Of a stretch of 45,871 nt of DNA, positions 3,719 to 42,540 are shown piece by piece. The DNA is taken from positions 1 to 45,871 of IMG/VR virus record IMGVR_UViG_3300022821_000030. One strand, 5' to 3'. A program made the position numbers and the translations under genes. Source of the DNA: a virus. Position 1 is the first letter of the stretch. Each line of letters opens with the position of its first letter. The notes under the pieces are model-generated. The model was not told the origin of the DNA. It did not search any database and was given only the letters and a program-made list of their open reading frames with translations.

Positions 3719-5460
3719 TGAGTAGCACTATCTTATTTCTAGGTGGTGCTGCGAGGGCTAGCGCTAGTGCTGCTGAGGCTGCTGCTAGTGCTGCTACCGC
3801 GGCGGGTATTGCAACTGGCTTGACTTACAAAGGCGAAGACGCCGGAGGCGACATTGCTGGGCTTACTCCTGACGATGGTGACATGTATCTTATTGACACA
3901 GCCGGTGGTGGTTATGCTGTCGATGATTGGGTTGTATACGACGGAAGCGCGTGGGCTGTGTTGCCTAAGAGTGCGTTGTATAACGTAGCTTCAATGGAAG
4001 AGGAGTTTGAACAAGTCCAATCCCAACTCGCCACCAAGGCCAGCCGAGGCCGTGCGATCAGCGACGGGGCGACGCCAGACCGTGCGACGCGATGGGTTCC
4101 CGGCGCGATTGGCGACGTGGCGGGGTTGCCCTCCGCGCTTGCGTTAGAGGGCGTCGATGTCCCAGCGGCCAACCCGGCTGGTAAGCTGTATCTCGCAGCG
4201 TGGGCGGCCAGCGCGACCAGTGACCCCGAAACCCAAGCGTGGGCCGCGGCGCTGTATATCGACACCTCGGGCTATTTAGTTTTCCACGTTACGGGTGCGA
4301 CGCCCGCGACGGACTATCGCACTTATACGAGCGACGCTGCCGTGGTCACCGGCGAAGCATATACCACGCGAGCCGTCTTATCCGGAAACAGCGGCACCGT
4401 CTCCCCGTCACTTAGCTTGGGTGGTGCGACGCTCGCAGCGACCGAGGCCAATGGAGCGGGCACAGACCCAGATTGGTTCTCCCCCTCGCTCAACACCACG
4501 TATCTGCTCGGCGGCTACGAATTGCCGGCCGGTCAAATGCCGACGGTAATCCCCACCCTCGGCACATGGACCGACCCAGAGGCGCTGGCGTGGACCGCAG
4601 GCGGCGCGTTTCCGGATCGGTTTGAGCAGCCGGGGAGCGCGGTAAATCTGCGAGCTGGGCTTAGTTTTCAAAATGGTGCATCTGCGCCCGACACGCTGAC
4701 GGTTTCAGGCATGTCGATCACGCAGTGCGTGGTGACGTCTCCTGTCGATCAAGTTGTGACCTCATCGGCATTCACTACCGAGGTGGGCAAGACCTACGCG
4801 ATCATCATTCCAGACTTCGCGCTGGCGTCCGGCTCTTATCCGCAAGTCAGGATAGCAGAAGCTACAAACTTGACGACAGCGGACGGTTCTGACGGAGGAA
4901 AAGATTTCAATGCCTACGCAGGCGAGGCAGTCCTGACGTTCACCGCTGGCGGAAACGGATCAAATTTGCGCCTCGGTTTTCGTTGTGATAGTGCCACGGA
5001 TTTTTCGTGCGGTCCTGTGCAAATGGTTGAGGTGGGCTCCATCATCCGACCCTACCACCAACCGGGCCTCGCCGTGGGCGACATGAACGGGCGCCTCGCC
5101 GGTCGGCTCGTCGGCGGCTTCCAAGTGCCGGAGGCGGGCGTGCGCGACATCGTGATTGATGTGCCTTACGCCTACGAGGGCAGCTCAATCCAAGTTCTCG
5201 GAGGAGATATACTCGGCGGACTCGATGCTCGCGTCGTCTCGGTATCGGGTTACGCCGATGACGACACCACGGGCTCACTCGGCACCACGAGCGGAGGCAC
5301 GGAGATCGTAAACGCACAGGCGATTGATGGCGACTTCGACATCGCAACCTTCGCCTCTCGCGTGATTTCAGCCGGGGCCAGCCTCTACTGGACTCCCGCA
5401 GCGGACCCAACCAACGGCACGCTGCAAATCGTGCTACGACCAATCAACCAAGGAGCCTAA
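3718..5460 (+). CDS. Tail fibre / receptor-binding-type protein, 580 aa
   Basis: The N-terminus has an Ala-rich helical stretch (about residues 10-30) followed by a motif around GLTYKGEDA and DMYLID...VYDGSAW, reminiscent of phage fibre and collar adaptor domains. Residues about 95-110 look like a short coiled coil. The rest is beta-rich, Gly/Thr/Ser-rich and laid out like a carbohydrate-binding or LamG-type module. No catalytic residues are recognised. From about base 4030 the DNA becomes clearly more GC-rich than the N-terminal third, the pattern expected when fibre tips are swapped by recombination. Fibre function is inferred from composition, size and position. Confidence 0.7.
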   Translation: MSSTILFLGGAARASASAAEAAASAATAAGIATGLTYKGEDAGGDIAGLTPDDGDMYLIDTAGGGYAVDDWVVYDGSAWAVLPKSALYNVASMEEEFEQVQSQLATKASRGRAISDGATPDRATRWVPGAIGDVAGLPSALALEGVDVPAANPAGKLYLAAWAASATSDPETQAWAAALYIDTSGYLVFHVTGATPATDYRTYTSDAAVVTGEAYTTRAVLSGNSGTVSPSLSLGGATLAATEANGAGTDPDWFSPSLNTTYLLGGYELPAGQMPTVIPTLGTWTDPEALAWTAGGAFPDRFEQPGSAVNLRAGLSFQNGASAPDTLTVSGMSITQCVVTSPVDQVVTSSAFTTEVGKTYAIIIPDFALASGSYPQVRIAEATNLTTADGSDGGKDFNAYAGEAVLTFTAGGNGSNLRLGFRCDSATDFSCGPVQMVEVGSIIRPYHQPGLAVGDMNGRLAGRLVGGFQVPEAGVRDIVIDVPYAYEGSSIQVLGGDILGGLDARVVSVSGYADDDTTGSLGTTSGGTEIVNAQAIDGDFDIATFASRVISAGASLYWTPAADPTNGTLQIVLRPINQGA

Positions 5461-5461
5461 C

Positions 5462-5902
5462 ATGACCGACGAAATTGAAGAAACTATCCCGGTGTTTGAG
5501 CCTTACGGCCTTGAAATTGGCGCGGCCACTTACACCGTGCTCGAACCCGAGGAAGCCGTAGCCCAGCGCGTGCAAACGCCGCAAGGCCAAGTGATCGGCG
5601 TGCCAGTAGCAGACAGCTCCATCGCGCTGACTGCGGAAGCCTTGCAAGCGCATCTGGACAACCCACCCGCGCAGCCTACTCCAGTCCGCATGCTCTCCAA
5701 ACTCACCATCCGCCGATACTTCCGCGAACTGGGTAAGGAAGCTGCCTTCGACTCAGCTCTGGATCAAATCCCCAACGCACGAGCCGATTGGACTGACTGC
5801 AACGAGGTGAGAACTGACGACGCCATGTTCACGACTCACCGTGCGGCCCTCCAAGCCGCGCTTTCTCTCACCGACGCGCAACTTCAAACCCTTCTAATCT
5901 AA
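5462..5902 (+). CDS. Fibre-associated small protein, 146 aa
   Basis: The second half contains a stretch common in small phage proteins that follow fibre genes: a short LSKLTIRRYFRELG helix, then a QIPNARADWTDCNEV segment, then a C-terminal helix rich in Leu/Ala/Gln. Such proteins are usually annotated as hypothetical or tail-assembly related. The start at 5462 has AAGGAG at the end of the fibre gene as Shine-Dalgarno. It shares the GC-rich composition of the preceding fibre, suggesting that the two moved as one module. It ends in a TAATG junction. Confidence 0.75.
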   Translation: MTDEIEETIPVFEPYGLEIGAATYTVLEPEEAVAQRVQTPQGQVIGVPVADSSIALTAEALQAHLDNPPAQPTPVRMLSKLTIRRYFRELGKEAAFDSALDQIPNARADWTDCNEVRTDDAMFTTHRAALQAALSLTDAQLQTLLI

Positions 5903-6669: not shown

Positions 6670-7038
6670 GTGTCAAATCCTCTAACCGAAAAGACTCAAA
6701 TCGCAGTTCGAGCCGCTGCTGTCCCTGTAGTGATCTGTGCACTTGTGGTCGCAGGCTGGACAGTTCGAGGATTTATCGAATCGTTCCGTCACGAAACCAA
6801 CGAACGCATAGCTCTTGTTGCGGCCAAGCAAGCTAAAGAACTTGAGATCGTCATGACAGCAGTGCGAGTCAACCAAGAGTTCTTAAAAACCGCACAAATA
6901 AACATTGAAGCAAACCGCTCCACAATTGCCGAAGGCAGTGTCGACAGGTTCTACGGAAAAGAATTTGACTACTGGGTGCAGCTCGCAGAAACTATGAACG
7001 AAGGTAAAAACATAATCTGGCCCAAACGTCCTCGATGA
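6670..7038 (+). CDS. Single-TM membrane protein (i-spanin or holin candidate)
   Basis: A 122-aa protein with one hydrophobic segment at about residues 12-31 (AVRAAAVPVVICALVVAGW), followed by a long charged, helical region (about 38-85) and a basic end. A short N-tail, one membrane span and a periplasmic coiled-coil-like domain match an inner-membrane spanin better than a multi-span holin. The GTG at 6670, right after the lipoprotein stop, is preferred because it places the membrane span close to the N-terminus. Confidence 0.6.
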   Translation: MSNPLTEKTQIAVRAAAVPVVICALVVAGWTVRGFIESFRHETNERIALVAAKQAKELEIVMTAVRVNQEFLKTAQINIEANRSTIAEGSVDRFYGKEFDYWVQLAETMNEGKNIIWPKRPR

Positions 7039-7457
7039 AATACCGGAAACTCAAAGGCTACAAATACCAAACCGTCCGTGACTACGCTTGTATTCTCCCA
7101 GAACTTGCCACCGTCAACGCCAACCACGCAGACTTAATAACACTTAACAACGGAAAGTTAGTAATCAAAAACCACTACTGTTGGAACGGGGCATCAGGCC
7201 CCACCTTTGACACCAGAGCCACGATGATACCTTCCCTAGTCCACGACGCTCTCTACCAACTACTAGCTCTGGGTCTGCTACCTTCCCACTATCGCACAGA
7301 AGCTGACGCCATCCTGCACCGTCTCTTAAACGGCACAACTCGTTGGTCCAAATTCAGAGCCTCCTACTACCACACCGCGGTCACACTTTTCGGTTCCTTC
7401 GCCATTCATCAAAAAGCGACTGAGCCGCAAGACGAAATCTACACAATATTCAAATGA
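7035..7457 (+). CDS. DUF1353-like phage protein, 140 aa
   Basis: The central segment CWNGASGPTFDTRATMIPSLVHDALYQLL is the hallmark region of DUF1353-type phage proteins: a W-N-G-A-S turn, then S-x-x-H-D. These are widespread in phage genomes, often near lysis or tail genes, and have no established activity; the conserved His-Asp suggests metal binding or catalysis. The gene overlaps its neighbours at ATGA on both sides, so it is part of the same translational chain as the lysis-like cluster. Confidence 0.7.
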   Translation: MKYRKLKGYKYQTVRDYACILPELATVNANHADLITLNNGKLVIKNHYCWNGASGPTFDTRATMIPSLVHDALYQLLALGLLPSHYRTEADAILHRLLNGTTRWSKFRASYYHTAVTLFGSFAIHQKATEPQDEIYTIFK

Positions 7458-7753
7458 AATATCAACTCTCCATCGGCGCAACCAGTCTTCTGTTACAATG
7501 CCTAGAGAACTCAGGTTGGTCCGAATCGCCAAAAGACGTCTACCAAGCCGGTAGCCTCACAGTCATCCTCGACCAGCATCGCCCGCCCACCGACGTCACA
7601 AAAGAAACCCTCTGTGGTCAAGTCGAAATCGAAATCACAGACGGGCAATTCGCCGTAGCTCAAAAAGCCGTAACCCACTTCTGCTCCAAAGGCGCAGTGC
7701 CTGCAAACAACCACGCCGTCTACCTAATCGGAGTCCTAAAACTCTCAGAGTAA
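7454..7753 (+). CDS. Hypothetical protein, 99 aa
   Basis: Not recognised. It has a mixed alpha/beta composition with three Cys residues and no membrane segment. It is the last gene of the accessory chain and its stop codon TAA (7751-7753) is followed after one base by dyad repeat copy b. The start overlaps the preceding stop (ATGA). Confidence 0.7.
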   Translation: MKYQLSIGATSLLLQCLENSGWSESPKDVYQAGSLTVILDQHRPPTDVTKETLCGQVEIEITDGQFAVAQKAVTHFCSKGAVPANNHAVYLIGVLKLSE

Positions 7754-7754
7754 G

Positions 7755-7775
7755 CGTCAATTATTGACATCAACC
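7755..7775 (+). repeat. Dispersed dyad repeat, copy b
   Basis: CGTCA-ATTAT-TGACATCAACC. It fills the whole gap between the stop at 7753 and the portal ATG at 7779, three bases before the start codon. Its left flank GTAAG is shared with copies e and f. The left arm pairs only over four bases, so the sequence appears to be conserved rather than a stable hairpin. Confidence 0.85.
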
Positions 7776-7778
7776 ATC

Positions 7779-9659
7779 ATGGAACGCGACAAACTTTACA
7801 AACTTTTAGGAGCTGAAAAGCCCACCACAGAAATCAACACCTTGCGAGACTACTGCAAGGATTTGGTAAAGATGTCTCGTGATGAGATGCAAAAATACTA
7901 CTCGACGTGGGATGCTGCTGATCGTGTGTATCGTGGTCAACGCGCTGAGGATAGACAGGATAAGAAAGCCAAGTCACGCGGCGAGCCTGTTAAAATGATT
8001 GTGCCGCTGACGTATCAGCAAGTTCAAACCTTTGTTGCTTTCGCTTACACCGTATTAACACAGAGAGATTACTTTTACGAACTTTCGGGTTCGGGGACTG
8101 AAGATGAACAAGCCGCCAAGTTGCAACAAGCCTTACTTGAGCGTGACTTGGAATACAACAAGTTCAAGACTGAGAAACTCACCCAGATTCTAACCGACGT
8201 CGCCCGTTACGGCATTGGCATCGTGAAAAGTGGGTGGGTGAAAGAGACTACACCTATTGTAGAAGAAGTTGTTGTGGAAGAACAGTCTCCGGACCCGACC
8301 CTTCCTGTTACGCCGAGAACACAAAAGCAAGTCCGTGATGTCACGAAGTTTCTCGGCAACAAAGTCACTGTTGTTAGTCCGTATAAGTTCTTTCCAGACC
8401 CAAGACTCCCACTCACCAGGTTCCAAGAGGGCGAATTCTGTGGCAGCGAGGATGAGTATTCCAAGTCAGATCTAAACGCGTTGCAGCGTCAAGGTCAGGT
8501 GGCTGGCATCGAGCACGTTCAAGCACTTACAAAAGAAGACGGCGACGGTCGTAGGCTCTTGTGGGTCCAAGCTGAGTCTGCCACGAATGGTTCAGACGAT
8601 AAATTCCAACTCATCACTGAGGTTCAGTTCCTGTTAAACCCAAGCGAGACCAAGATCACAGAAACTGAGATGCTTGACAAAGACGTAGACCGTGATATTA
8701 AATACCTAGTCTGGATCGCTAACGATCAACGGATTGTAAGGCTCGAACCGATGGGATACGCGCACGACGAATTCACCTACGACGTCGGACAATTTGCTAA
8801 TGACCAAACAAAGTTCATAAATGAAGGTTTGGTAGAGGTGTTAGGACCTTTACAAGATACAATCACATGGTTCATCAACGCTAGAATCACCTCGGTTCGG
8901 AAAGTCATTAGCAACTTCTTACTAGTCGACCCAGATGCCATCGAAATCAAGGACCTAAACGAGCGTTCTCCGGTCATTCGACTGAAGAAAAAATACGCAG
9001 GCTCCGGGTTGGACAACTATGTCAAACAACTCAAGGTCGAAGATGTCACCAAGAGTCACCTAGACGACGTAGCCATCCTTACCGGTTATGCCCGTGACGC
9101 TACAGGCATCTCGGAAAACCTCATGGGTCAGTTTTCGTCAGGTCGACGCTCAGCTACCGAAGCAAGAAACGTCTCCAGCAACGCAGCTGGAAGGCAGCTT
9201 CTCGTGGTCAACGGGTTGTGGGACACGATTTTCCAACCGCTTGGGCGTAAAATGAGCTCAAACCATCAGCAAGGGCTCGACGAAGAACAGCTTATCAAGG
9301 TTGCAGGCCTGAGTAACGTAATGGCGAACCAACAAGGAGCCATACAAATGCTTAATATCACCAAAGACCAACTCATAGGTAACTACGACTTCATTATGTT
9401 TGAAGGTAGCCTCCCGTCACAACGCCACGCGAACGCTGGCACCTTACAAGAACTTCTCATAGCCATGATGAGTAACCCAATGGCGATTCCTCTTCTCGGG
9501 CTCGACCCGAAACTCCTAACCCTCGAAGCGTTAACCCTACGCGATATTAGAAATGTGGACAGATTCAACCTCACCCCAGAAAGACTTGGCGAACTTACTG
9601 GAATGGCGGGACAGCCCCCAAACCCAGCAGACCCTAACGGAGCTCCGCCAGTTGGCTGA
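7779..9659 (+). CDS. Portal (head-tail connector) protein
   Basis: A 626-aa protein in the standard portal position: after terminase, before scaffold and major capsid. It begins with a helical, charged region and has a large alpha/beta clip-and-wing-like middle. The stretch IKYLVWIANDQRIVRLEP is followed by a long helical stem region (about residues 330-480) including a GYARDATGISENLMGQ motif. That motif strongly resembles portals of short-tailed phages. The C-terminus is Pro/Gly-rich. ATG 7779 is preferred over the upstream TTG because it lies just past dyad repeat copy b. Portals form the dodecameric DNA entry ring. Confidence 0.88.
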   Translation: MERDKLYKLLGAEKPTTEINTLRDYCKDLVKMSRDEMQKYYSTWDAADRVYRGQRAEDRQDKKAKSRGEPVKMIVPLTYQQVQTFVAFAYTVLTQRDYFYELSGSGTEDEQAAKLQQALLERDLEYNKFKTEKLTQILTDVARYGIGIVKSGWVKETTPIVEEVVVEEQSPDPTLPVTPRTQKQVRDVTKFLGNKVTVVSPYKFFPDPRLPLTRFQEGEFCGSEDEYSKSDLNALQRQGQVAGIEHVQALTKEDGDGRRLLWVQAESATNGSDDKFQLITEVQFLLNPSETKITETEMLDKDVDRDIKYLVWIANDQRIVRLEPMGYAHDEFTYDVGQFANDQTKFINEGLVEVLGPLQDTITWFINARITSVRKVISNFLLVDPDAIEIKDLNERSPVIRLKKKYAGSGLDNYVKQLKVEDVTKSHLDDVAILTGYARDATGISENLMGQFSSGRRSATEARNVSSNAAGRQLLVVNGLWDTIFQPLGRKMSSNHQQGLDEEQLIKVAGLSNVMANQQGAIQMLNITKDQLIGNYDFIMFEGSLPSQRHANAGTLQELLIAMMSNPMAIPLLGLDPKLLTLEALTLRDIRNVDRFNLTPERLGELTGMAGQPPNPADPNGAPPVG

Positions 9660-39169: not shown

Positions 39170-39520
39170 TTATGATTGATCCTCCCATTCGCCTATGGTA
39201 TGTAAGTAGGCTTCACATCGTTGGCGTGCGGTGGCGGTCCCCCACCTAGTCCCTAACATGTCTATAAGTTGGTGCCGATATTCACCAAACCGCTCCTCCG
39301 TCAGCGTAGCCTCAAACTCAGCACACGCATTTAGGTCGCTGTAGCAGTCAGGAAGCTGATCGCAGTGGTCTTCTTTGCGCCTAACTTCATAGAATAGTGT
39401 TCGTTCTGCCCAGTGTCCGTCTGGCCTGTGCCAGCAGTGGCCAGTCGGCTTAAGCGTCTCGGGTTTCCACTCCCATCCCAGTGACTCCGCGATTGTGATG
39501 TTCATGCGTTCGGGGGTCAT
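39170..39520 (-). CDS. Phage ABA-sandwich-domain-like protein, 116 aa
   Basis: The region LPDCYSDLNACAEFEATL matches the conserved P-x-Y-S-x-D-x-x-A segment of phage ABA-sandwich proteins, preceded by a Trp-rich N-terminal strand. It resembles the 134-aa protein at 41790-42194 (CGWKEV..., LPKYSQDLNAMHEAEKTL). The function of the family is unknown. It overlaps upstream by ATGA. Confidence 0.65.
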   Translation of the reverse strand: MTPERMNITIAESLGWEWKPETLKPTGHCWHRPDGHWAERTLFYEVRRKEDHCDQLPDCYSDLNACAEFEATLTEERFGEYRHQLIDMLGTRWGTATARQRCEAYLHTIGEWEDQS

Positions 39521-39858
39521 AGCGCACCTCCGGTGTTCGCCTGAGACGGGCCTTCTGTTCGCTCCTCGCGTTCTCGGATGTAGCGTAGCGCCGTTTCGTG
39601 CCGCATCTCGCCGGGATGCTTGGACTCGACCGCCAATATTAAATCGTAGTAGAGATTGTTTAGACGGTCGAGTTCCCCAGCCGCATCTCGTAGCCCTTGG
39701 ATTTGCCGACGAGCATCTTGCTCCTCTTCGGGATCAGCGGCGGGAAACGCATCTTGCATTCTTGCATATTCATCGGCTTGCGTCCTAAGCCAAAGCGGCG
39801 AACCAAGCGATGGAGGAGGAACGCCGACAGTCGCGGCGGTTTCATTAGGTGGTGTCAT
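39517..39858 (-). CDS. Hypothetical phage protein, 113 aa
   Basis: The end HPGEMRHETALRYIREREE matches a motif common to short phage proteins of the early region (PGETRHETALRYIRE). The start is Pro/Thr-rich, the middle a helical DPEEEQDARRQIQGLRDAAGELDRL. The ATG at 39858 is preceded by an A-rich leader. Confidence 0.65.
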   Translation of the reverse strand: MTPPNETAATVGVPPPSLGSPLWLRTQADEYARMQDAFPAADPEEEQDARRQIQGLRDAAGELDRLNNLYYDLILAVESKHPGEMRHETALRYIREREERTEGPSQANTGGAL

Positions 39859-39877
39859 ATTCGTATGTTTTTTGTGG

Positions 39878-40591
39878 TTACGAGAGATCGCCGTCTCGGC
39901 GTTCCTCATCTGATCTGTTCACCGAAGAGAATTGCGCGACGACCTCGCCCGCGAGTTCGAGCGAGAACCAGTCGTCCACGCGGAGCTTTCCCTCCATGTC
40001 GGCCCACCATCCGGGACGGGCGATTTCAAGGATCGTTTGCAGCTCACGGGCGATATTGTCCGGGCCGAGTCCGCCCGCGAATCCAACGGGTTTTTCCGTC
40101 GCCGGTTGCGCCCATGCGCTCGGTGAGATTCCACGCCCTCCGCTGGTGTCGAGTAGAACGGCGTGATTTAGCGAGCGGACGAACAGCAGGTGCGCGTTGT
40201 TGTCGTGGTGTTGGGTGATGATCGTGTGACGCGGATACATCTCGCAGAGATGCTCCACCTCCAGCGCCAGGATTCCGCCGTTGACTTGGATGCGCTGGAA
40301 GCCGCTGACCGGCAGCTTGCCGTCCATCAGCATCGCGCGCGCTCCGCGCCCGCAGACATGCAGGGACGCCCTTCGGAGTTCGAGCGAAGTTTCCCGAATC
40401 CATTCCCATCGCGGGTATCGTTTCCGCCCTTCGGGCGTTTCCGTGTAGAGCAGGCCGATTTCGGCATCCAGCTTTGCGAGTTCGGTTACGTCCGTTCGTT
40501 CATCCGCGCCTGTCACAGTTAAGAACGGTGAACAAGACGGTGATCCCAACGGGGACCGCTCTGCTGTCGAGATTTTAGGGGGGGTTATCAT
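39878..40591 (-). CDS. TrpF-like TIM-barrel protein, cargo gene
   Basis: A 237-aa protein resembling bacterial proteins annotated as phosphoribosylanthranilate isomerase. Conserved segments are FLTVTGADERTD (23-34), RYPRWEWI (58-65), SLHVCGRGA (76-84), LLDTSGGRG (146-154) and VGFAGGLGPDN (169-179), in the order of TIM-barrel strands, with the last two forming phosphate-binding loops. The usual N-terminal KICG, with its catalytic Cys, is replaced by VTGAD, so isomerase activity is doubtful. The gene is GC-richer than its neighbours and lies between 18-bp direct repeats. No other tryptophan gene is present. A single-gene cargo insertion is inferred. Confidence 0.78.
   Translation of the reverse strand: MITPPKISTAERSPLGSPSCSPFLTVTGADERTDVTELAKLDAEIGLLYTETPEGRKRYPRWEWIRETSLELRRASLHVCGRGARAMLMDGKLPVSGFQRIQVNGGILALEVEHLCEMYPRHTIITQHHDNNAHLLFVRSLNHAVLLDTSGGRGISPSAWAQPATEKPVGFAGGLGPDNIARELQTILEIARPGWWADMEGKLRVDDWFSLELAGEVVAQFSSVNRSDEERRDGDLS
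39904..39921. repeat. 18-bp direct repeat, left copy, in TrpF-like gene 3' end
   Basis: CCTCATCTGATCTGTTCA, identical to 40663-40680, 759 bp away (a multiple of three). On the coding strand both copies read NRSDE in frame. The repeat lies at the end of the cargo gene. Confidence 0.9.
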
Positions 40592-40636
40592 GATTTTTGT
40601 GTTGTCGGAGTGGCGCTGCCGTCCCCGTGGGATACC

Positions 40637-40843
40637 TCAGCGTTTGGAGGAATGAAAAGGTCCCTCATCTGATCTGTTCAGCTCGGATTCATCCAAAATC
40701 GTTTCGAGCGTGAATTCGGGGCTCTCGTCCTTCGTTTCGCTTTGCGCACTGGGGAAGATTTGGTCAGCAAGTTTCCCCAGTCGAGCAGCCTCGTTCTCGC
40801 GGAACTCTCGGGTCGTTCGGGTTTGGTAATAGTCCTCACTCAC
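40637..40843 (-). CDS. Hypothetical protein, 68 aa
   Basis: The GTG start is in a GTGA overlap with the upstream gene and a GGAGG lies upstream. The N-terminal part is helical and charged. Near the C-terminus ELNRSDEG carries the right-hand 18-bp repeat. Removing the sequence between repeats would fuse the first part in frame to RRDGDLS at the end of the TrpF-like gene, which suggests that the original gene was split by an insertion. Confidence 0.65.
   Translation of the reverse strand: MSEDYYQTRTTREFRENEAARLGKLADQIFPSAQSETKDESPEFTLETILDESELNRSDEGPFHSSKR
40663..40680. repeat. 18-bp direct repeat, right copy, in 68-aa gene
   Basis: Identical to 39904-39921. Together the two copies bound a 759-bp unit that contains the TrpF-like gene. 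Confidence 0.9.
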
Positions 40844-41789: not shown

Positions 41790-42194
41790 TTACTCCCCGT
41801 CGACCGGAGTAGGCTCGTCAATACCGTACTCGGACTTGGACGCTGTGTTGTTTAAGATTTGAACAAAAGCGCGAGCCCGTTGGTAGGCTGACGCTACTGT
41901 CGCCGAGGCTATGTAAACCTCACAGTCTTCTTTTACTATCAGTCTAAGAGTCTCTACATAGTTCCAAAACTCATGCGAGGTCAGCGTTTTCTCAGCTTCG
42001 TGCATGGCGTTCAAGTCTTGCGAATACTTAGGCAGGTAGCACGGTGGAGTGACTTCGTGCGTCTTTCGATTAAGCCACCAGTTGTTATCACCAGTCAAAA
42101 ATGCTACCTGTTGGTAGATTCCGTTTGGTGGTGGAGCTACTTCTTTCCACCCACAGTGGGTAGCTATGACTTTATTAAGCTCGTGAGGTTTCAT
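41790..42194 (-). CDS. Phage ABA-sandwich-domain-like protein, 134 aa
   Basis: HELNKVIATHCGWKEV, then PPPNGIYQ, and YLPKYSQDLNAMHEAEKTL follow the family pattern (N-terminal helix, Trp, P-x-Y-S-x-D). It is a diverged paralogue of the 116-aa protein at 39170-39520. The start overlaps the upstream gene by 20 bases. A terminator follows. Confidence 0.68.
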   Translation of the reverse strand: MKPHELNKVIATHCGWKEVAPPPNGIYQQVAFLTGDNNWWLNRKTHEVTPPCYLPKYSQDLNAMHEAEKTLTSHEFWNYVETLRLIVKEDCEVYIASATVASAYQRARAFVQILNNTASKSEYGIDEPTPVDGE

Positions 42195-42540
42195 CAGATT
42201 TCTCCGCACAGCACGTCAGCACACGAACGGTTTCTTTAAGTTCTTTAAGTTCGGTCGACAGCTCGTTGTTGTGTTTGCGAACGTATTCGAGCTGCTGATT
42301 CGCGATGGTGAGTTCTTTATGCTCACGCTCTTTCTTACTTTCACGTTCGACCAGCGACGCGTCAAGAAGCGTGACTGAGGTGCGGGAAGGCTCGCGAGGT
42401 ATTTCATACTCAGCTTTTGGGGCTGATTGGTAGGTCTTTACAACGTGTTGAATCTTAGTAAGTTCGCCTAGTTGACCTAGAAGCGACATAGGCACGAGGA
42501 AGTGATCGGTGCCGACTGAGAGGATGATTTTTGTTTTCAT
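42175..42540 (-). CDS. Coiled-coil protein, 121 aa
   Basis: N-terminal strands MKTKIILSVGTDHFLVPMSLLG, then a helix, then about residues 65-105 with a heptad pattern (SKKEREHKELTIANQQLEYVRKHNNELSTELKELKETV), an evident coiled coil. No family match. The leader is CA-rich without Shine-Dalgarno. Confidence 0.68.
   Translation of the reverse strand: MKTKIILSVGTDHFLVPMSLLGQLGELTKIQHVVKTYQSAPKAEYEIPREPSRTSVTLLDASLVERESKKEREHKELTIANQQLEYVRKHNNELSTELKELKETVRVLTCCAEKSDETSRA

Follow-up and report, generated by a model that had tools for sequence, protein, structure and literature searches.

A probable integrase-less array of two attC-like cassettes in a tailed phage's early region

A tailed phage represented by IMG/VR virus record IMGVR_UViG_3300022821_000030 very probably carries, in its early region, a two-cassette array without an integrase of its own, akin to a CALIN, the cassettes of which would have been gained through an integrase supplied from elsewhere. 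CALINs are clusters of attC sites that lack an integrase. We refer to the whole stretch of DNA analysed, all 45,871 nucleotides of that record, as the window. Looking beyond it, we consider it likely that uncultured tailed phages have an integron lineage of their own with reversed polarity, in which the site at the 5′ end of each gene provides the translation start, the cassettes are expressed from phage transcription, and methyltransferases, TrpF-like proteins and other genes are exchanged through phage integrases. How short early genes are reshuffled between unrelated tailed-phage lineages is a long-standing question, to which illegitimate recombination is the usual answer; phage-borne integrons, with cassettes that bring both a recombination site and a start codon, would be a dedicated and testable mechanism, and one with a polarity new to integron cassettes. 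Cassettes common to several phages would let this gene flow be traced unit by unit.

The starting observation was an 18-bp direct repeat, CCTCATCTGATCTGTTCA, which a sequence-only reading had taken to bound a single, recombined cargo gene. Both plus-strand copies were confirmed, at 39904–39921 and 40663–40680, in the same frame and 759 bp (253 codons) apart from start to start; extended, the copies are identical at 20 of 21 bases. With up to three mismatches allowed, two matches are found against 0.02 expected by chance, and none of 100 shuffles gave two. A single main open reading frame (ORF), of 237 amino acids on the minus strand, does occupy the interval, but it overlaps the right copy, and its last 13 residues are encoded by that copy and the bases beyond. 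The cargo is GC-rich, as had been claimed (0.61–0.64, against about 0.50–0.58 nearby). The supposed 759-bp mobile unit did not hold up: it is the sum of a 34-bp remnant and the actual unit, a 725-bp cassette. The idea of an insertion survives in part, in that a single-gene cargo unit does appear to have been gained by recombination, but the repeats are neither a duplication made by insertion nor the unit of recombination.

The same cargo gene recurs in phages that are otherwise unrelated. In IMG/VR contig 3300022222_000016 (L002), where the array adjoins phage replication and packaging genes, it is present at 86% amino acid identity and 85% nucleotide identity over 641 bp, with no DNA in common with the window beyond the gene. 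The identity ends at position 39917, inside the right repeat and at the C of the AAC that opens a second site, attC2, and this is the right border of the cassette. A third copy (L039; 75% amino acid and 78% nucleotide identity) lies in yet another context. The gene is absent from G002, G003 and G004, three relatives of the window phage with terminases at 50–56% and a common gene order, and the region 38.7–43.4 kb varies within this group. No such attC-like sites were found in four phages of the window phage's terminase family.

In the window, L002 and L039 copies alike, the start codon lies within a long, imperfect palindrome, the arms of which differ together. A pattern scan of IMG/VR gave 54 stretches, many of them there by chance, with a clear cluster of one architecture at a total length of 87–91. 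The first half of this site consists of AAC, 5–6 unpaired bases, two long arms and about 60 variable bases; in the second half, the return arm carries two extra bases that do not pair and is followed by five unpaired bases and GTT. Across 19 seed sites, the 18 pairs are 98.8% paired; there are 30 double changes, and single-sided changes are absent. A covariance model (R1) recovers 57 sites from 20 sequences, and most of them belong to co-oriented arrays on viral contigs. A second, broader model (R2) was built from these 57. In their alignment (56 distinct sites), 98.5% of cells are paired and 295 double changes are seen; as this alignment was fitted to the structure, the argument leans on the count from the 19 seed sites and on separate features that agree with one another. 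Over the 56 distinct sites, 99.4% of cells have the three R-box pairs formed. Base changes are nearly all from one Watson–Crick pair to another, with very few G–U pairs, as expected for folded DNA. Extra bases are absent from the outer arm in 53 of the 57 sites and number two or three on the gene-side arm in 56, and the spacers measure 5–6 nt and 5 nt in nearly all.

An attC site is defined by R boxes, an unpaired central spacer, extra-helical bases on the R″–L″ arm and a variable terminal structure (PMC2727003). Because the hairpin matches attC in its R boxes, unpaired central spacer, one-arm extra-helical bases and variable terminal structure, we identify it as an integron-type attC site; as for attC, the structure is kept across sites with little sequence conservation. 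Of the GTTRRRY/RYYYAAC consensus, the R boxes keep GTT and AAC alone, the next four bases being variable; secondary sites need only GNT (PMC10127599). No match in an RNA-family search reached any gathering score, and a narrow scan for the exact attC pattern of the main subtype gave no hit in 84,980 bacterial and archaeal species genomes.

In the window, all parts of the array lie on the minus strand. Upstream of the cassettes is the 68-residue ORF (40637–40843), the last residues of which, NRSDEGPFHSSKR, are read from a putative attC remnant. This 34-bp remnant (40643–40676) has AA^C at both ends and holds most of the left repeat. The intact attC1 (40531–40644) reaches into the start of the TrpF-like gene and scores 117.4 bits with R1 (E = 2.7e-38), a model whose training set included the window copy, and 113.4 bits with R2. 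It has an AAC/GTT R box, an unpaired 5-nt spacer, a terminal part of about 60 nt that holds the cargo ATG, and L arms with two extra-helical bases (T and C), both on one arm. Cassette 1, which is attC1 plus the TrpF-like gene, spans 39918–40642 from AA^C to AA^C. The gene itself (39878–40591) encodes a predicted TIM-barrel protein of which residues 1–20 come from attC1 and about 225–237 from attC2. The latter site (39801–39919, with an R2 match over 39792–39919) reads AAC-AGATCA-GATGAGGAACGCCGA ... TCGGCGTTCCTCCTCCATC-GCTTG-GTT, with the same AAC/GTT R boxes as attC1 and a 4-nt bulge on the arm that carries the extra-helical bases. It was outside the R2 training set and is nevertheless recovered by R2 in the whole window at 40.1 bits (E = 1.4e-8), the next best match having E = 0.64; related arms also emerged from the repeat analysis of the window. 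A placing of the right border in a 'recipient gene' was rejected once the broader model found attC2 there. The second cassette gene is the 130-residue ORF at 39517–39909, with a likelier start at ATG 39858, inside attC2. Towards its C terminus it matches a gene of an array contig that also encodes an integrase, L118/G026 (76 bp at 85.5%). Searches of the window gave no PF00589 integrase and no recognised attI, and there is no transposase among the ORFs of the insert. Two further window ORFs, at 39170–39520 (116 residues) and 41790–42209 (139 residues), look alike by eye, with an LGW/CGW start and a DLNAxxEAE-like motif, and may be paralogues flanking the cassette region.

This layout accounts for the repeats. 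Since attC2 begins at the AAC where the identity with L002 ends, the right 18-bp copy consists, for the most part, of attC2's R′ box, its spacer and its L′ arm. Counted from its AAC, the left copy repeats the same sixteen bases, which are followed by 18 others and then by attC1. Flanks joined at AA^C show a 16-bp repeat at a spacing of 34 bp, and on this ground the left copy looks like a fossil of an attC2-type site that was cut short. In seven further copies of such cassettes the flanks have no comparable duplication; the repeat is therefore peculiar to this locus and does not mark the mechanism as such. What had been offered as the end of an original, uninterrupted gene, ...NRSDEERRDGDLS, is what any upstream gene in that frame would read on entering attC2, and the cargo ends in the same peptide; searches of IMG/VR found neither a relative of the 68-residue protein nor, with the 18-mer, an empty site. 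The segment upstream of the cargo, NAEVSHGDGSATPTTQKS*, was considered as the end of a donor gene and rejected, as L176 shows it to be attC read in that frame. Excision of the cargo unit is a natural expectation, although no excised form was observed; if it happens, it would be integrase-mediated at AA^C, not between short repeats.

In classical cassettes, attC lies 3′ of the gene. Here the order is reversed: attC precedes the gene, and in most cases the start codon lies within it. The recurring units carry the site on the 5′ side of their gene, an ATG falls inside attC in 42 of 55 sites and within 40 bases after the site in 7 more, and the extra-helical bases, which by definition belong to the R″–L″ arm, sit on the gene side. 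The ATG borne by attC is presumably the start codon used. At L123 the site is read in a frame other than that of its sister sites, an indication that it is the structure of the DNA, and not the peptide, that is conserved.

Co-oriented arrays of eight or more sites each are present in G022, G026, G013, G016 and G020. Three cassettes occur as pairs in different contexts (L119/L153, L133/L139 and L136/L138), with borders exactly AAC to AAC and flanks that diverge at once at AAC. Three uncultured phage contigs carry complete integron-like arrays of 8–15 co-oriented sites, in which the cassette genes include DNA methyltransferases and read toward an integron integrase placed directly after the array: G022 (L173, 1212–6880), G013 (L175, 11642–16726) and G026 (L188, 1101–9471). 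Against TIGR02249 (NCBI cut-off 265 bits), these integrases score 281.2 (G013), 274.9 (G026) and 247.1 bits (G022), the last just under the curated cut-off. The G022 integrase has Vibrio cholerae IntI4 as its best solved relative and, in a viral scan, matched itself only. AACAGT lies just upstream of all three integrase genes, which suggests a candidate attI at this motif. A tyrosine recombinase in G024, at 28.6 bits, was rejected as an integron type. Of 12 contigs tested, seven, the window included, have a match to one of two terminase families (G026 yielded no terminase); from these matches, together with the replication and packaging neighbours of the L002 array, it follows that the array carriers are phages, and not one lineage.

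Several smaller observations belong to these contigs. On the minus strand of L176 (G023), at 6671–7957, two neighbouring cassettes carry related methyltransferase-like genes (about 70% nucleotide identity over 345 bp), which looks like a cassette that was duplicated and then diverged. The best terminase match in the array contig G016 (G016:C1:17632-18648) has one TGA and one TAG in frame, for which a broken gene, a sequencing error or another code are the alternatives. An integrase 40% identical to the G013 integron integrase is encoded at 4818–5639 of KX853513.1 (Virus Rctr41k, from an enrichment culture).

We propose that, in phages with complete arrays, the integrase at the array end would act on one strand of each hairpin-folded site and cut at AA^C, by which single cassettes, each an attC-like site followed by one gene, would leave as circles and be integrated at other places. 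The TrpF-like cassette and that of the 130-residue gene would have reached the window phage through an integrase from a co-infecting phage or the host, and the 18-bp repeats would be equivalent arms of two sites of the same type, one intact and one truncated. The sequences directly display the sites and their structure, the exact borders of the cassettes, the presence of one cassette in phages that otherwise differ, and integrases next to arrays, whereas we infer recombination activity, the source of the integrase and the manner in which the left site was truncated.

Some features do speak against an array: the R boxes beyond GTT/AAC, the reversed polarity, the lack of an integrase, attI or empty site for the window, the incomplete left copy, the sub-threshold score of the G022 integrase, and G026's want of a terminase match. 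The perfect, in-frame 18-bp repeats and the foreign, higher-GC cargo could instead indicate insertion with target duplication or illegitimate insertion, by which a segment of 741–759 bp entered the 68-residue gene, duplicated 18 bp and can loop out again. We hold this to be improbable, given that the right copy belongs to an intact attC-like site, that the insert has no transposase, that the seven other cassette copies lack such a duplication, and that the L002 identity breaks off at AAC within the repeat and not at the repeat's outer end. Transposon insertion proper, which entails a transposase, terminal inverted repeats and a target duplication, was rejected: there is no such gene, and the repeats are attC arms.

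Stem-loop cassettes in T4-type phages are a comparable element, and the hairpin might likewise be a regulatory RNA or mobile stem-loop leader of phage early genes, spread by homologous recombination without an integrase. Its position at gene starts, usually with the ATG inside, and its covarying stem would agree with this. The arrays are, however, directly followed by integron integrases, the substitutions follow the Watson–Crick pattern of folded DNA with hardly any G–U pairs, and the extra-helical bases are confined to one arm. Cassette borders, moreover, fall exactly at AA^C, where the flanks diverge and where integron integrases are known to cut (PMC2727003, PMC10127599), and we regard a leader as very improbable. 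That the window is a single metagenomic contig leaves room for an assembly chimera or a chance repeat, but two further contigs have the cassette gene, in one case with an identical right border, and the family model recognises both attC1 and attC2, which makes such an artefact extremely improbable. An array of attC-borne cassettes is thus our preferred reading.

CALINs have been described in lytic phages, with IntI1 recombining phage attC sites (Qi et al. 2023, PMC9892861); integrons and CALINs in phages and the competence of phage attC sites are already published, and the 5′ attC polarity is the novel part. The present arrays resemble integron arrays and CALINs in having one gene per folded site, a likeness of structure and not of sequence, the AA^C/G^TT cut and a TIGR02249 integrase. 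They differ in that attC lies at the 5′ end of the gene, and in that several unrelated uncultured phages have cassettes in common. In the atypical Treponema integron, intI lies ahead of the cassettes and reads toward attI (PMC3607928). There, as here, cassette genes and intI have the same direction, but in the phage arrays the integrase keeps its classical place relative to attC and it is the cassette genes that are inverted. In the part of the literature covered, we found no account of cassettes with a 5′ attC or of arrays common to uncultured phages.

The earlier description of the cargo as TrpF-like is upheld for the fold, but not for membership of the curated family: its match to Pfam PRAI (PF00697; E = 0.0045, 17.1 bits) is below the 22.7-bit cut-off. 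The AlphaFold model has a mean pLDDT of 90.2, with low confidence mainly in residues 1–20, as an appended tag would lead one to expect. Phosphoribosylanthranilate (PRA) isomerases (4aaj, 1v5x, 1nsj and 4wui) are the closest matches to the model in the PDB. On this model, the cargo is a TrpF-like TIM barrel with a fold nearest PRA isomerase. It has the conserved D-x-S-G-G-x-G and AGGLxPxN motifs in common with TrpF, but the position of the first-strand catalytic cysteine, in a motif that we take to be KICG in TrpF, is TxTG in the cargo family. Active-site-like residues are invariant across 27 cargo relatives; placed by alignment and by general knowledge of TrpF, the sixth-strand Asp (D148) is invariant, and the Cys position is occupied by a threonine (T27) that is invariant or nearly so. 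A narrow, single-protein scan of bacterial genomes found no relative of the cargo, although family members at 30–52% identity do occur on large plasmids of Proteobacteria. Relatives are encoded by 177 IMG/VR stretches and are also present in Microcystis phage Mwe-JY13 and in huge phage genomes. TrpF-like barrels in which the catalytic cysteine position is replaced thus form a wide family on phages, huge phages and large proteobacterial plasmids.
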